This document shows positions 3,651-10,089 of a DNA stretch of 64,000 nucleotides, piece by piece. Source of the DNA: Methanoculleus sp. GTDB lineage: Archaea; Halobacteriota; Methanomicrobia; Methanomicrobiales; Methanoculleaceae. The notes beneath the pieces were generated by a model. It was not told the DNA's origin and ran no database searches. It was given only the letters and a program-made list of their open reading frames with translations. The stretch lies in the NCBI RefSeq assembly GCF_030019085.1, contig NZ_JASEFJ010000008.1:1-64000 (forward strand), in the 5' to 3' direction. Both the position numbers and the translations under genes were made by a program. Numbering within the stretch: the first letter of the stretch is position 1; the number at the start of each line of letters is the position of its first letter.

Positions 3651-3920
3651 ATTTCCGATACAACGCAATTCATCGTATATACGCTGGAATCCTGCCCGAA
3701 TTGCGAGATCCTGAAAGAGTTTCTGGCCTCCAGGAGCGTGCCCTTCATCGAGTGCGACATGGCATCCGCTGAAGCGCTGACCGAGCTTCGCATGAACGGG
3801 GTATTCGTTCAGGAGGCGCCGGTGTTGCAGAAGGGCGACATATTCTATACGTCAGCCGACCTCTTTCCCGGGGGCGTCTTCCGGGAAGACCTGGTTGCCT
3901 GTCTGATCGTGGAGGCGTGA
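3651..3920 (+). CDS. nrdH: Glutaredoxin-like redox protein (NrdH type), apparent ATT start
   Basis: The frame reads TTQFIVYTLESCPNCEILKE near its start, a thioredoxin-fold beta strand followed by a CxxC active site (CPNC), and continues through MNGVFVQEAPVLQKGDIFY, where the APVL segment holds the cis-proline. This is a compact glutaredoxin/NrdH of about 89 residues. It directly precedes nrdD and overlaps its start region. Known biochemistry in Methanosarcina barkeri shows an NrdH-like protein reducing class III NrdD, so the same role is inferred here. There is no ATG, GTG or TTG before the CxxC; an in-frame TGA lies at 3633. The likely start is the ATT at 3651, 6 nt after a GGGGGT ribosome-binding site. 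The ATT at 3645 is possible but too close to that site. Confidence 0.75.
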   Translation: MSDTTQFIVYTLESCPNCEILKEFLASRSVPFIECDMASAEALTELRMNGVFVQEAPVLQKGDIFYTSADLFPGGVFREDLVACLIVEA

Positions 3921-3922
3921 GG

Positions 3923-6900
3923 TTGAGCCGTAAGTCAACACAGACGACGCTGTTCGGGGAGTTTGTCCCCACATTTCCAAAGGTCAGGACTTCGCGGGGC
4001 TACCTCCTTGACTGGGACAGAAATCGGATCATCAGGCAGATCGTGGAGGAGACCCGGCTTGTTGAGGTCTTCTACGGCTACGAGGGGGCAGACGAGGAGA
4101 CGGCAAAAGAGATTGCCAGGCTTGTCGAGAGAAAGATCCAGATGCTGGGGCTTCAGTCCCTTTCAGGGCCCCTGATCCGCGAGATCGTCAACATGACGCT
4201 CCTTGAGCGAGGGCTGATCCCGTACCGTAACGTCTGCACCAGGGTTGGAACCCCGGTCTTCGATGCCCATCTCATCGATGTGGGGCGGGGGTTTGAAGCG
4301 CACGACAACGCCAACCTCCAGGAGAATGCCGAGACCTCACACAAGAAGAAGGCCGACAAGATAAGCAAGGAGCAGTACCTCCTGCAGCTCCCCCCTGACC
4401 TTGCAGACCACCACCTCCGCGGGGATCTCCATATCCACGACCTGGAGTACTTCGGGACCCGTCCGTTTTGTATCGACGGGAGCACGGCCATACCCGTTCG
4501 GATGGGTAACCGGATCCGGAGCATCCGTCCAGACGAACTCCCGATCGATGGTGATGCGTGGCGACCGCTGGACCTCTCCGCGCTCACGCCAAAAGGCTGG
4601 AGACGTGTCCTAAAGGTGACCCGCCGGACGGTGAACCCGGGCGAGATGCTCAGGATCCGGACATCAGGCGGACGAACGCTGATGGTCACCCGGGAGCACC
4701 GTATCCCGGTGCGGACCGGCGAGGGGATGGCCATCCGCCGTGCCGACGAAGTACGCGCCGGGGACGCCCTCTACAGGATCAGCGGGGCCGGTGCCGTGCG
4801 CGGGGAGACGATCGAGGCGATCGATCTCGTCCGGGAACTGCCTGCATCGGTCCCGGCCCACCTCCTTGAGAACGTCTACGTCCGCGGTGCAGGAGAGATC
4901 TTTGCCCAAGTGGTCCGGAGCGGCCGGGCTTCTTCATACTCCGACATATCGCGGGCCCTCGGCATTGAGCACCAGAAGCAGTGGTATACGCGCGGAATTA
5001 TGCCGGTCGCACTCTTCAGCACGTTCTGCAGTCGTTACGGCATCGAGGATTACGCCGGGGTCACCATCGGGGTCACGGGGAGCGAGCACGAGCTGCCTGC
5101 TCTATTGACGCTCACCCCCGAACTCATCCGCCTCCTCGGGCTCTTCGTTGCGGAAGGCAACTACAACGTTTCTCTAGAGGCCGGGCAGTACAACCTCGCG
5201 ATCATCGAGAACCGCCAGGCACCCGCCATCCTGGCCCCGGCACGCACCGCCCTGAACACCTATGCAACGATCGCCGGCGGCGCTCCCGACACCACGACCA
5301 TCTACGGGGCCGAGGTGGGGCGCAACCGGGCGCCGCAGGTCTACTTCGGCGGGAAGCCGGCATACCTGCTCTTCCGCTATGTCTTCGGCATCCCTGAGGG
5401 GGCAGCAAGGAAGCGCCTCCCCTGGATAGCCTACCATCTTGACGATGTGCTCCTCCACGAGTTTCTTTCCGCTCTCTTCACCGGAGACGGCTCGGCATAC
5501 TACTGCCCGGAAAAATCGGACTGCATCGTCAACTACACCACCGAGTCACCGACCCTCCGGCAGGAACTCTCGCTCCTGCTCACATCGCTTGGGATGACAC
5601 CCCACATCGTCGAACTCTACGGAGATAACGAAGAGCGGCGGACACTCTACCGCCTCCAGATCAACGGGCGGAAGGATATTGAGACATTTGCCCGGTACGC
5701 CACGTTCCTCGATGAGCGGCAGGACCACATCGACGGTTTCCTTTCTGCGGTGAAGGAGATGCAGGTTGGAGAGCAGGAGGAGACCGTCGTCGAGGTCTCT
5801 GTGGCAGAACCGACCGGAGCGTACGTCTACGACCTCTTCCTCGACGGCGACGGGAGCGAGGAGAGCCACACGTTCTTCGCCTCCGACGGCCTCCTCATCC
5901 ACAACTGCCAGGATTGGGACCTTCGCTACTTCTTCTACTATGGTCTGATGCCCGACGGCAACGGTACAAAAGCCTCTGTTGCCGGCCCGGCGAAGCGGGC
6001 GGAGGTGGCGGTTCTCCATGCGGTCAAGGCGCTCGGTTCCGCCCAGACAAACTTTGCCGGTGGCCAGGGCTACTACAACTTCCTGACATTCATGGCACCA
6101 TACTTTGAGGGGATGGACTATGACGGGATCAAGCAGTTGATGCAGATGTTCGTCTACGAGATGACCCAGATGATGGTCGCCAGAGGAGGTCAGGTAGTCT
6201 TCTCGTCGGTCCAGCTCTCACCCGGCGTCCCCACCCTCTGGAAGGACAAGCCCTGCGTCTTCCGCGGCAAGGTCTGGGACGGAAACCAGGCGCCGCTCCG
6301 GACATACGGCGAGTTCGAGCGGGAGGTCAGACTCCTTTTCAAGGCGCTGATGGAGGTGATGCTCGAGGGGGACTACTGGGGCAAACCATTCTCCTTCCCG
6401 AAACCCGAGATCAGCATCGAGCCCGATTTCCTCACCGAGGACGAGGAGTTCAACCGCAACCACCCAGACCTCCCGACCTACCACGACCTCTACCTGATGA
6501 CGTTTGAACTCGCGTCCAAGTACGGCACCCCCTACTACGACAACCAGATACCGGCCTACCGTGGTGCCGGGGAGGGTATATCGTGTTACCAGTGCCTGGC
6601 AGGGGACGAACTGGTTCCGGTGGCCGATGATGAGGGCCGGATCAGTGTAAGGCATATCCAGGAGATATTCGATACTGCGGCAAAGAACGGGAGACGGATA
6701 GATACTTTCGGAACTGAGCTCGCCTACTATGATGGGAGAACACCGAGCGTCGATTTTGAAACCCAGGAAGCGTCACTCCGACCGTTCCACGGTGTTATGC
6801 GTAGACGGTATACTGGCCAACTCCTCCGGATCACCCTGGAGTCGGGTCGTGAGATCACGGTCACCCCCGATCATCCGGTCTACGTCCTCGATGGGGATGT

Positions 6901-8956
6901 GTTTGTCCGTGATGTTGCAGGCGAACTCGCCGTGGGTGACTGTCTCCCGGTGCTTAAAGCGACGGGGTTCTGCGAGCGGCCGGTTGAGGAGATCGAGGTT
7001 GCAGAGACCCTGGCTAAGGTTGGTTACGGCAGTTCGATCCGCGTCACCGGAGATGTTGTAACCCTCAGGACATCCGGGCGCGTCAGTCTGCCCCGTCTTC
7101 TGCCGGTCAGCAGCGAACTCGTCAGACTCCTTGGCTACTATCTTGCAGCAGGGCGCAGCGAGCGTTTGGCGCGGCGTTATACCGTCAGATTCACGTTTGA
7201 GGGAGGGGATGCGGACCTCGCGACGGATACCGCCACCTGCATCCGTGCGGTCCTGGGGGTCGAGCCGCAGGTCTGTGAGACGGCATCGGGAACGGCGGTG
7301 ATCATCAGCAGCAAGCTCATCTACCTCCTCTTTGTCGCCCTGGGCTGCGCTTCAGCCGATGCCGATAAGTCTGTTCCGGATCTCGTCTTCAACCTCGATC
7401 GCTCTCTGGTGGCGGATTACCTTGGTGCGGTCTTCAGCGCAACCGATAAGAAGGCCTCCGGCCGCCCTGCCAGGAGCATCAGGCTGAATGTAGCCTCCAG
7501 GGAAGTCGCCCAGAAACTTGTCTGGCTGAGCGGCAGGATCGGTGTCCAGATGAGTTACGCCGAAAGGGACAGGCTTTTTGGTCTACCGCCAGACAGCGTC
7601 CCCCACAGGGTCTACACCTGCAGGATAACGGACAACGACCAGATAGAGAGGTTCCAGGCGGAGACCGGTTACCCTCCAATGATGCCCCGAGGACGGCAGA
7701 ACGGCTGCCCGTTCGCGCTGATCCCCGAGACTCAGGTCACACCCGGATGCACCGGTCTTGCCTGTGCAAGCAGGTACAGTGGTGATGGGGTTGAGAAGGT
7801 CCAGGTGACCATCGTAATCCCACCAATCGCAGAAGAAGAGGAAGAAGTGTTTGCCGGTCTTCTTGAGTATGGGGATGTGCACCCGCTCCGTATTCGATCG
7901 ATCGAGACGGTGGACCACGATGGTTACGTCTACGACCTTGTCGACGTCGCAGGCACCCACACCTTTGCAAACGCGCTCGGGATAGTGACCGGGAACTGCT
8001 GCGCCTACCAGTTCTCATCGCTTGCCGACGAAGACGACGAGTTTGAGGACAAACTCTACTTCCGCGAGGGGAAACACTTCTCGATGGGTTCATGGCAGGT
8101 TATGTCGATCAACTGTCCGCGGGCGGCTTACAAGGCCGATGGCGATCAGGAACGACTCTTTGCCGAGCTCAGGTCTCTCATGGATATCGCAGTCGACCTC
8201 TTCCGGATCAAGCGCCGGTGGATGTCCCTGATCCGGGGGAGCGGTCGGATGCCGTTTGCGATGCAGCGCCCGAAGGACCCGTACACTGGCGAACGCGGCG
8301 CGGTGGCCGTGGATCTGGAAGGTCTCGTCTATACCATAGGCGTCGTCGGTGTCAACGAGATGGTGCAGCACTTCACCGGCTACCAGCTCCACGAGTCGAA
8401 GGAAGCCTTCCGCCTGGCTGTCCGTGCGATGACCGAGCTCGAGTTCTACGCCCGTGAACTCTCAAAGAAACACAACATGACGATCGCCCTCGCTCGCACC
8501 CCTGCGGAGACGACCGGCCAGCGGTTTGCGGTTGCCGATCTCCTGGACGAACGGTTCCGCGATAATGCGATCAGGGTGGCCAAGGGCGATGTCGAACGAG
8601 CGCTCGATATGCTTGGCACGACGCTTGACCTCCCCATCTACTACACCAACGGGACACACGTAACGCCGGGAGCGGCAGTCCCGCTCACGAAACGGATCGA
8701 GATCGAGCATGTCTTCTTCCCTATAGTGGACGGCGGGAACATCTTTCACATATGGCTCGGGGAGGCCCGCCCTGACCCCCGTGGGCTGATGGAGATGGCG
8801 CTGAACCTCTGCCGGACAACCCAGATCGGTTACTTTGCATTCACCCGCGATCTGACGGTCTCCCTCAAAGAGTTCCGCGAATACAGGCCGGTGAGATCCG
8901 GGCAGATGGCTGAGCACCCGGTGACGACCCTGGAGGTTGACCGGGTGGATGCCTGA
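3923..8956 (+). CDS. nrdD: Anaerobic (class III) ribonucleoside-triphosphate reductase with two inteins
   Basis: Reduces ribonucleotides to deoxyribonucleotides by glycyl/thiyl radical chemistry. The frame encodes about 1,677 residues, of which two inteins (4469-5905 and 6593-7996) account for 947, leaving an extein of about 730 residues. An ATP-cone-like N-terminus (RTSRGYLLDWDRNRIIRQIV) is followed by the NrdD barrel. After splicing, the junctions read TRPF-CQDWDLRYFF and GISCYQ-CCAYQFSS, both active-site cysteine regions. A GTG at 3917 is in frame, but the TTG at 3923 has better spacing (7 nt) from GGAGG. Unusually, the C-terminus (after YFAFTRDLTV) lacks the zinc-binding cysteines and the R-V-x-G-Y glycyl-radical motif expected for the family. 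No nrdG activase is adjacent. Confidence 0.93.
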   Translation: MSRKSTQTTLFGEFVPTFPKVRTSRGYLLDWDRNRIIRQIVEETRLVEVFYGYEGADEETAKEIARLVERKIQMLGLQSLSGPLIREIVNMTLLERGLIPYRNVCTRVGTPVFDAHLIDVGRGFEAHDNANLQENAETSHKKKADKISKEQYLLQLPPDLADHHLRGDLHIHDLEYFGTRPFCIDGSTAIPVRMGNRIRSIRPDELPIDGDAWRPLDLSALTPKGWRRVLKVTRRTVNPGEMLRIRTSGGRTLMVTREHRIPVRTGEGMAIRRADEVRAGDALYRISGAGAVRGETIEAIDLVRELPASVPAHLLENVYVRGAGEIFAQVVRSGRASSYSDISRALGIEHQKQWYTRGIMPVALFSTFCSRYGIEDYAGVTIGVTGSEHELPALLTLTPELIRLLGLFVAEGNYNVSLEAGQYNLAIIENRQAPAILAPARTALNTYATIAGGAPDTTTIYGAEVGRNRAPQVYFGGKPAYLLFRYVFGIPEGAARKRLPWIAYHLDDVLLHEFLSALFTGDGSAYYCPEKSDCIVNYTTESPTLRQELSLLLTSLGMTPHIVELYGDNEERRTLYRLQINGRKDIETFARYATFLDERQDHIDGFLSAVKEMQVGEQEETVVEVSVAEPTGAYVYDLFLDGDGSEESHTFFASDGLLIHNCQDWDLRYFFYYGLMPDGNGTKASVAGPAKRAEVAVLHAVKALGSAQTNFAGGQGYYNFLTFMAPYFEGMDYDGIKQLMQMFVYEMTQMMVARGGQVVFSSVQLSPGVPTLWKDKPCVFRGKVWDGNQAPLRTYGEFEREVRLLFKALMEVMLEGDYWGKPFSFPKPEISIEPDFLTEDEEFNRNHPDLPTYHDLYLMTFELASKYGTPYYDNQIPAYRGAGEGISCYQCLAGDELVPVADDEGRISVRHIQEIFDTAAKNGRRIDTFGTELAYYDGRTPSVDFETQEASLRPFHGVMRRRYTGQLLRITLESGREITVTPDHPVYVLDGDVFVRDVAGELAVGDCLPVLKATGFCERPVEEIEVAETLAKVGYGSSIRVTGDVVTLRTSGRVSLPRLLPVSSELVRLLGYYLAAGRSERLARRYTVRFTFEGGDADLATDTATCIRAVLGVEPQVCETASGTAVIISSKLIYLLFVALGCASADADKSVPDLVFNLDRSLVADYLGAVFSATDKKASGRPARSIRLNVASREVAQKLVWLSGRIGVQMSYAERDRLFGLPPDSVPHRVYTCRITDNDQIERFQAETGYPPMMPRGRQNGCPFALIPETQVTPGCTGLACASRYSGDGVEKVQVTIVIPPIAEEEEEVFAGLLEYGDVHPLRIRSIETVDHDGYVYDLVDVAGTHTFANALGIVTGNCCAYQFSSLADEDDEFEDKLYFREGKHFSMGSWQVMSINCPRAAYKADGDQERLFAELRSLMDIAVDLFRIKRRWMSLIRGSGRMPFAMQRPKDPYTGERGAVAVDLEGLVYTIGVVGVNEMVQHFTGYQLHESKEAFRLAVRAMTELEFYARELSKKHNMTIALARTPAETTGQRFAVADLLDERFRDNAIRVAKGDVERALDMLGTTLDLPIYYTNGTHVTPGAAVPLTKRIEIEHVFFPIVDGGNIFHIWLGEARPDPRGLMEMALNLCRTTQIGYFAFTRDLTVSLKEFREYRPVRSGQMAEHPVTTLEVDRVDA
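4469..5905 (+). other. Intein 1 in NrdD, with LAGLIDADG homing endonuclease
   Basis: An in-frame 479-residue insertion. It starts at a Cys (CIDGSTAIPV, block A). Block B is GGRTLMVTREH with the T-x-x-H signature. The C-terminal splice site reads GLLIHN followed by Cys, with the usual penultimate His and terminal Asn. Two dodecapeptide motifs, LLGLFVAEGN and ALFTGDGSAY, keep their acidic residues, so the endonuclease may be active. It inserts at the first active-site cysteine region (TRPF-C). Confidence 0.93.
6593..7996 (+). other. Intein 2 in NrdD, endonuclease domain apparently decayed
   Basis: An in-frame 468-residue insertion, starting CLAGDELVPV and ending GIVTGN before a Cys. Block B is GREITVTPDHPVYV with the T-x-x-H signature. 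The insertion sits in the CYQ-CC cysteine pair of the active site. The first dodecapeptide reads LLGYYLAAGR, with Ala where the catalytic Asp/Glu is expected, and the second (YLGAVFSATDKK) lacks a D-G end. The residue before the terminal Asn is Gly rather than the usual His. Splicing still seems required, since the enzyme core lies on both sides. Confidence 0.9.
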
Positions 8957-8975
8957 AGAAGGTTCATCCTTTTTT
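8955..8975 (+). terminator. Terminator-like stem with T run after nrdD
   Basis: The short stem AAGG-TTCAT-CCTT immediately after the nrdD stop codon runs into a series of six T residues. This fits a poly-T archaeal terminator, although the stem is weak. Confidence 0.45.
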
Positions 8976-8992
8976 GGATACGGGAGGCGATT

Positions 8993-9002
8993 CTTATATA
9001 AA
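8993..9002 (+). promoter_or_regulatory. TATA box for the DUF1786 gene
   Basis: CTTATATAAA lies about 50 bp before the ATG at 9049, which would place transcription start near 9023 and leave a leader of about 25 nt. Confidence 0.55.
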
Positions 9003-9048
9003 TGGATCGTCGCGCTGGAGACAAACTGATTAGAATACGAGGCCATGC

Positions 9049-10089
9049 ATGATCGATCTGATTAATCCACTCATCGCGATCGATGTCGGTCGGGGCACCC
9101 AGGATATCCTGGTCTACGAACCCGGCAGGGCGATCGAGAACAGCATCAAACTGGTTCTTCCCTCGCCGACCGTGATCGTTGCGGAGAAGGTCCGTGAGGC
9201 GACCAGGGCCGGTCGCCCTGTCTTCCTGGAGGGGTTTCTGATGGGCGGTGGTGCAAACGTCGGCGCTTTACGGGAGCACCTCTCACGCGGTTTCCCCGTC
9301 TATGTCACACCGGACGCGGGAGCGACCATCCACGACAACCCGGAGCGGGTGCGGGCGCTGGGCTTTGAGATCCGAAGTGATCCCCCCTCAGATGCGATGA
9401 CCGTCCGCACCACCGATTACATGGAGCAGGAGATCGGACAGGCTCTCGCCCTTTTTGGTGTAGATTACCCCGATAACGTTGCGATAGCAGTCCAGGACCA
9501 CGGTTACTCACCGCACCGGAGCAACCGCATACACAGGTTCGAATTTATGCGGGAACGGCTTGACGCCGGTGGATGGGAGATCCTCTCTCTAATCTCCGAT
9601 CCCCCGCCTGAAGATATGACCCGGATGCAGGCCGTCCGACGTCAGGCGCCGGGGGCCCTTGTCACCGATACCGGCCCCGTCGCCCTCATCGGGGCGCTAT
9701 GCGATCCCGTGGTCAGGCGGATGGCCCGGACCGGGGTGACTCTGGTCAATGTCGGGAACGGCCACACGCTCTGCTTTACCCTGAAGGGGGGCGAGATCCA
9801 CGGCCTCTTCGAGCACCACACTGGCGCACTCAACCCGGGGAAACTTCGCCACTACATCCGGCGACTCGCTGACGGGACGCTGACATCGGAGGAGGTTTTT
9901 GAGGATGGCGGTCACGGGGCTGCTGTCAGGAAACCCCTTACAACCGATGCCGTTGTGGTAACCGGGCCAAACCGTCTCCGACTGCTGTCGGAGGCTTACC
10001 AGGCGGCGCCGTTTGGGGATATGATGCTCTCGGGATGCTTCGGGCTCGCCTATATCTGGAAGGTGTTTCGGGAGAGAAGTGAGGGGTAA
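9049..10089 (+). CDS. DUF1786 family protein, 346 aa
   Basis: The N-terminal motif LIAIDVGRGTQDILVY is characteristic of DUF1786, a family found mostly in methanogens and often labelled as pyruvate formate-lyase activating enzyme-like. I see no CxxxCxxC radical-SAM motif, so that label is not supported here. IDVGRGTQ together with the later TLVNVGNGHT block resembles the phosphate-binding loops of the ASKHA (actin/Hsp70) fold, which suggests nucleotide binding (inference). The molecular function is unknown. The gene has its own TATA box and converges on nusA. Confidence 0.85.
   Translation: MIDLINPLIAIDVGRGTQDILVYEPGRAIENSIKLVLPSPTVIVAEKVREATRAGRPVFLEGFLMGGGANVGALREHLSRGFPVYVTPDAGATIHDNPERVRALGFEIRSDPPSDAMTVRTTDYMEQEIGQALALFGVDYPDNVAIAVQDHGYSPHRSNRIHRFEFMRERLDAGGWEILSLISDPPPEDMTRMQAVRRQAPGALVTDTGPVALIGALCDPVVRRMARTGVTLVNVGNGHTLCFTLKGGEIHGLFEHHTGALNPGKLRHYIRRLADGTLTSEEVFEDGGHGAAVRKPLTTDAVVVTGPNRLRLLSEAYQAAPFGDMMLSGCFGLAYIWKVFRERSEG

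Follow-up and report, generated by a model that had tools for sequence, protein, structure and literature searches.

A probable two-subunit class III ribonucleotide reductase in Methanomicrobiales, with the glycyl-radical domain encoded by a separate gene

Introduction

The 64-kb stretch of Methanoculleus sp. DNA analyzed here (contig NZ_JASEFJ010000008.1, positions 1 to 64,000; the window) contains a gene for NrdD, the class III (anaerobic, glycyl-radical) ribonucleotide reductase (RNR), whose reading frame stops at the end of the catalytic barrel. Where, then, is the zinc and glycyl-radical domain that would complete the enzyme? The original prediction, made from the window sequence, offered three answers: the domain is encoded elsewhere, the protein is an inactive or repurposed paralogue, or the radical glycine sits in an unfamiliar context. 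The first proved correct, as a stand-alone gene for a 120-amino-acid protein carrying the domain is present elsewhere in the genome. The two genes very probably specify a two-subunit class III RNR (probability roughly 0.9, judged from gene content and sequence) composed of a 732-amino-acid barrel and a 120-amino-acid radical subunit.

Results

The NrdD barrel ends before the radical domain

The window NrdD is encoded from a GTG start as a 1679-amino-acid precursor that includes two inteins and terminates at a stop codon at 8954-8956 (Table 1). PF13597 covers the protein in three extein pieces (E = 1.5e-122) but reaches only positions 1-510 of the 562-position profile. The TIGR02487 score of 429.6 bits, against a cut-off of 326, identifies the NrdD signature of the 10-stranded barrel of RNRs and glycyl-radical enzymes; an ATP-cone match in extein 1 (residues 22-99) was weak (E = 0.019) and fell under the curated cut-off. 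When joined computationally, the exteins give a protein of 732 residues. Its identity is 65-68% with full-length NrdD from elsewhere in Halobacteriota and 92% with an intein-free homologue of the same genus. Both active-site cysteine regions noted in the original prediction, FCQDWDLR and GISCYQCCAYQF, are retained in all barrels compared, with slight variation in the viral barrel.

Past the last barrel strand, YFAFTRDLTV (8831-8860), the frame runs for another 31 residues (SLKEFREYRPVRSGQMAEHPVTTLEVDRVDA) to the stop, and this tail contains no Cys and no R-V-x-G-Y. Full-length relatives go on past the barrel with CMDDFH...CPNC...LSRVTGY; the window open reading frame (ORF) does not hold the radical loop and the C-terminal Zn cysteines in one polypeptide. 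No such glycyl-radical motif is present in the six frames of 8901-9120, in agreement with what had been noted for the DNA just past the stop, and no RxxG(Y/F/W) preceded by CxxC in an uninterrupted frame occurs anywhere in the window. Barrels end at profile positions 510-516 over the 199 genomes of the order Methanomicrobiales surveyed, and about 150 relatives in the order end at this place; where relatives were compared, their tails are unrelated. The nonsynonymous divergence (dN) of the tail between species is 0.4-1.5, as compared with 0.04-0.18 for the whole gene, which indicates that the tail is unconstrained. These results confirm the predicted absence of the glycyl-radical and zinc domain, and so variable a tail speaks against a glycine in an unfamiliar context. 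A frameshift or assembly error was ruled out because the truncation point is common across the order and the neighborhood of the separate fragment is syntenic; a Gly motif concealed in the tail or downstream was ruled out by the motif scan.

Intein 1 interrupts the protein immediately ahead of the catalytic Cys in FCQDWDLR, and intein 2 lies within the finger-loop motif SCYQ^CCAYQF. Both adjoin a catalytic Cys, so that the +1 extein nucleophile is an active-site residue. Intein number differs within the genus, being 0, 1 or 2 as judged by ORF length.

A stand-alone gene encodes the missing domain

A PF13597 search over the whole window-genome assembly (G000; 1.91 Mb, 99.6% complete) returned a single barrel (profile 1-510) and, apart from it, a single C-terminal piece (C55:36767-36928, minus strand, E = 8.5e-15), the latter within a 120-amino-acid ORF. 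The product, MNWSPEQLKLVEEYRDINKIPETERRYKCHTCHLVVDETPCPNCGETSLEIMCPLDHCDCRHSIVESIEYCPLCGHAVCPECGSHDVMQISRVTGYLQDVAGWNAGKQQELKDRVRYSVV, carries two CxxC pairs and SRVTGYLQDVAGWNAGKQQELKDR. Its C-terminal half is a class III Zn and glycyl-radical domain, in which the radical glycine is Gly95 in an SRVTGY loop beside the canonical CxxC/CxxC Zn site, and an extra Zn ribbon makes up its N-terminal half. The Gly, the Zn cysteines and the loop flanks are invariant across 42 stand-alone domains. The C-terminal half matches the P. copri NrdD chain over residues 697-737 (E = 3.5e-7), within the part (residues 676-739) that has been termed the glycyl-radical domain (GRD) (PMC11226230). The window genome also encodes the activase NrdG2 (C2:23202-23732; TIGR02495 match above cut-off, E = 1.5e-44) and the class II RNR NrdJ (C22:98011-99564); a second nrdD, which the original prediction had likewise proposed to look for, was not found there.

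Because the barrel gene contains two inteins, protein splicing acts on its product, and the two polypeptides might be imagined to be joined covalently after synthesis, by split-intein trans-splicing or through a trans-spliced RNA, into an ordinary full-length NrdD. This is highly improbable: neither the barrel C-terminus nor the 120-amino-acid protein gave an intein match, the barrel tail is unconserved, and the small ORF has its own ATG, a TATA-like TTTATATTATATA shortly upstream and its own N-terminal Zn ribbon. The stop of the small gene shares bases with an ATG of the cbiZ frame downstream; at another locus (L005 9756-10118) the radical-domain gene and the start of cbiZ (adenosylcobinamide amidohydrolase) have the four bases ATGA in common.

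The split is fixed in Methanomicrobiales

The 120-amino-acid protein was sought in 150 genomes of the order and matched in 127. Four of these matches (G024, G082, G086, G126) were left out as weak hits in unrelated long frames, and about 123 are real, with 64-90% identity. Among genomes at least 95% complete, every one sampled contains the truncated barrel and an unlinked 120-amino-acid gene, with the exception of one genus (g20, probably Methanocorpusculum). A fused NrdD of this lineage was not seen among the matches listed for the order, and one genome (G001) has an extra full-length NrdD of another subtype; relatives outside the order are full-length. We conclude that the split is fixed in Methanomicrobiales. 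The radical-domain gene lies in a neighborhood of deoxyhypusine synthase, pyrF, GRD, cbiZ and DUF1858 at all 50 order loci examined (the DUF1858 gene at 48), including 20 of 20 loci outside the genus, and at none of 13 outside the order. In single-contig genomes the two halves are located between 18.8 kb (G069) and more than 1 Mb apart. The exceptional genus g20 is without barrel, fragment and NrdG2 together and has kept NrdJ (9 of 9 genomes tested for all four); NrdG2 is kept wherever the barrel is kept and lost where it is lost. One closed genome (G028) has two NrdD barrel genes 15 kb apart (C1:285076-286791 and 300796-302511) and one radical-domain gene only.

The split enzyme appears to function in cells

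A truncated barrel could be an inactive or repurposed paralogue in cells that obtain deoxynucleoside triphosphates (dNTPs) from class II NrdJ, as the presence of nrdJ in the window genome and of some class I/II RNR in 88 of 106 near-complete genomes (at least 95% complete; PF02867 catalytic domain) would allow. The remaining 18, which include the single-contig genomes G156 (3,544,738 bp) and G182, gave no PF02867 match, and these genomes, several of them closed, have no other detected NrdD. The fragment was seen individually in ten of the 18, and the rest gave two PF13597 matches. A free-living archaeon requires an RNR. The split NrdD is thus the only detectable reductase in 18 near-complete genomes and, on this evidence, must work there.

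Divergence of the two genes was measured by NG86. For the small gene the median ratio of nonsynonymous to synonymous divergence (dN/dS) over 806 pairs is 0.133, and its radical-loop part, set against whole-gene dS, has a median of 0.067. The barrel median, over 55 pairs of which some had saturated dS, is 0.134. Both halves are under purifying selection. Together with the retention of all active-site cysteines and the joint keeping and loss of NrdG2 and barrel, these findings make a defunct or repurposed paralogue, the second possibility raised originally, most unlikely.

Stand-alone domains also accompany full-length NrdD

Methanococcoides, a g48 genome, Candidatus Alkanophaga and genus g130 each combine a full-length NrdD with a stand-alone domain that has the same radical loop but is without the first Zn ribbon. 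M. seepicolus has two different stand-alone radical domains. Where full-length NrdD coexists with the domain, a spare-part role like that of YfiD is the simplest reading. By analogy, the Methanomicrobiales protein might serve another NrdD as no more than a spare part or regulator, without being the obligate radical subunit of the window barrel. We give this little credence, since Methanomicrobiales have no other NrdD of this lineage for it to serve and the barrel has no second radical domain to draw on. A plausible path leads from a full-length NrdD with a spare part to loss of the built-in domain in the Methanomicrobiales ancestor. In a tree of 45 radical domains (64 columns) the branching did not resolve, and the stand-alone label was clustered, requiring 3 changes as compared with 13.9 when shuffled; this tree neither rules out nor shows a single origin of the stand-alone domains.

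Viral records carry the radical domain

Scans of IMG/VR located the stand-alone domain in records that also contain terminase, portal or replication genes. In two records (L237, 66.6 kb; L262, 76.3 kb) the gene order is radical domain (127 amino acids), glutaredoxin, NrdD barrel, with the ORFs overlapping or nearly adjacent and those of glutaredoxin and barrel overlapping. The barrel ends in GYFAF(T/S)RDLTVC plus a short tail, truncated like the cellular barrel. At least 15 other viral records, none known to be complete, contain the radical domain with no barrel detected. An AlphaFold model of the viral barrel, built on an alignment of four sequences, had a mean predicted local distance difference test (pLDDT) of 46 and was not used. 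The 24 matching INPHARED phage records have their hits inside NrdD genes where annotated, and all are distant from the archaeal stand-alone domain. A contig of a metagenome-assembled genome labelled Ratteibacteria (L148 5926-6381) carries a stand-alone radical domain; the contig is virus- or plasmid-like with an archaeal look, and mis-binning is probable.

Table 1. Coordinates and records of the features described.
Feature	Location	Strand	Basis or remark
nrdD barrel gene (putative catalytic subunit without glycyl-radical domain)	window 3917..8956	+	ORF; PF13597; TIGR02487
Extein 1: N-terminus and first barrel part	window 3917..4468	+	Alignment with intein-free relatives
Intein 1, 479 amino acids, LAGLIDADG endonuclease	window 4469..5905	+	PF14528, PF14890, TIGR01443; boundaries from L015 alignment
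Extein 2: barrel, CQDWDLRYFFYYG ... GISCYQ	window 5906..6592	+	Alignment with intein-free relatives
Intein 2, 468 amino acids	window 6593..7996	+	PF14890, TIGR01445; boundaries from alignment
Extein 3: CCAYQF ... to last barrel strand	window 7997..8860	+	Alignment
Variable C-terminal tail, in place of Zn and glycyl-radical domain	window 8861..8953	+	No CxxC, no RVTGY
Radical-domain gene (GRD), 120-amino-acid ORF	G000:C55:36758-37117	minus	PF13597 504-562
Viral cluster: GRD, glutaredoxin, truncated barrel	L237 5001-7643; L262 2127-4769		Upstream of family-B DNA polymerase
Stand-alone domain plus full-length NrdD	L144-L147 (Methanococcoides); L102, L103 (Alkanophaga); L104-L106		
Viral stand-alone domain, no barrel detected	L224-L230, L232-L234, L240, L244-L247		Often near terminase/portal or replication genes
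Genomes without class I/II RNR	G018, G047, G059, G077, G097, G121, G125, G149, G152, G156, G159, G168, G171, G172, G175, G179, G182, G184		No PF02867 match

Discussion

The window protein by itself lacks the radical glycine, and on its sequence we class it as a two-subunit variant of class III NrdD; read together, the two genes appear to supply all NrdD sequence features tested. Several points weigh against a two-subunit enzyme. The cellular halves are unlinked, and their context within cells does not tie them to one another. The joint loss of barrel, fragment and NrdG2 counts as one evolutionary event. Three assemblies of 71-93% completeness (G038, G136, G086) have the barrel without the fragment. 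An AlphaFold model of the 120-amino-acid protein alone (pLDDT 80, predicted TM-score 0.51) gave no significant fold match in the PDB, the best E value being 1.2, with P. copri NrdD ranked 17th (E = 3.6). Finally, the enzyme is known from genes and sequence, from which we infer the complex, the installation of the radical in trans and the electron donor. The viral clusters supply the link that dispersed cellular genes cannot show, as there the two halves stand in one tight cluster with a glutaredoxin gene between them, which argues that they are functionally tied.

In the proposed mechanism, the radical-SAM (S-adenosylmethionine) enzyme NrdG would take a hydrogen from Gly95 while the small subunit is free or loosely bound. 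The small subunit would dock in the open end of the barrel, at the position of the covalent domain in ordinary NrdD, and insert its loop near the finger-loop cysteines, where the glycyl radical would generate a thiyl radical on the finger-loop Cys. The thiyl radical would then start ribonucleotide reduction, for which a glutaredoxin/NrdH-type donor would supply the electrons; the glutaredoxin gene of the viral clusters fits such a thiol-dependent supply. The GRD of P. copri NrdD (676-739) moves as a whole, and with dATP bound the chain loses its order after residue 676, where the last barrel strand finishes (PMC11226230); GRDs flip out for activation by NrdG (PMC12662201). The split falls at this natural hinge.

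Glycyl-radical enzymes are cleaved by O2 at the Gly. One conjectural benefit of the split is cheap repair, only 120 amino acids being replaced after O2 damage. We lean, by a narrow balance, toward a broader proposal in which the NrdD GRD is an exchangeable radical carrier. It would be obligate in Methanomicrobiales, Methanococcoides and Alkanophaga would keep it as a spare part beside full-length NrdD, and tailed archaeal viruses would bring it into infected cells, where it would charge or rejuvenate the host's reductase. If so, NrdD would be the first glycyl-radical enzyme to join pyruvate formate-lyase (PFL) in having a spare-part system. Its presence in viruses suggests that, in methanogen dNTP supply, the radical subunit is contested. 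A dissociable NrdD would also open experiments that are hard in one-chain enzymes: on the NrdG binding site, on whether the barrel is needed for radical installation, on docking, and on whether one charged subunit can serve several barrels. For annotation, the pairing corrects a trap in which the barrels look defective and the 120-amino-acid genes look like fragments. No description of this split was found in the literature searched, which did not include subscription papers on methanogen class III RNRs, and an earlier mention is possible.

Full-length class III NrdD of methanogenic archaea (e.g., Methanosarcinaceae; TIGR02487/PF13597) shares its catalytic cysteines with the window barrel, and its domain order with the two genes taken as one; here, in contrast, the Zn and glycyl-radical domain is encoded by a separate, unlinked gene and preceded by an extra N-terminal Zn ribbon. 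The PFL cofactors YfiD/GrcA and T4 Y06I are likewise small free-standing glycyl-radical domains that act in trans with a barrel and can be virus-borne (PMC8683613). With 120 residues and an invariant loop, the archaeal protein falls within the size of about 100-130 amino acids of such domains, but it has no PF01228 match, belongs to the C-terminal part of PF13597 (504-562) with its Zn sites and is not a GrcA member. Moreover, the enzyme concerned is NrdD and not PFL, and in Methanomicrobiales the domain would be obligate, since the barrel has none of its own, rather than a repair part for a cleaved enzyme. A 2021 study recognized only YfiD and Y06I as validated spare parts, both for PFL, and considered that others may exist (PMC8683613); stand-alone NrdD domain genes are concrete candidates. 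Phage RNR genes can also be split, with NrdD in more than one ORF in Aeromonas phage phiAS4 and Lactococcus phage 949, but such splits are sporadic, mostly tied to introns, inteins or homing endonucleases, and leave adjacent pieces (PMC3653736), whereas the Methanomicrobiales split is clean, order-wide and positioned at a domain hinge, with the two genes unlinked.
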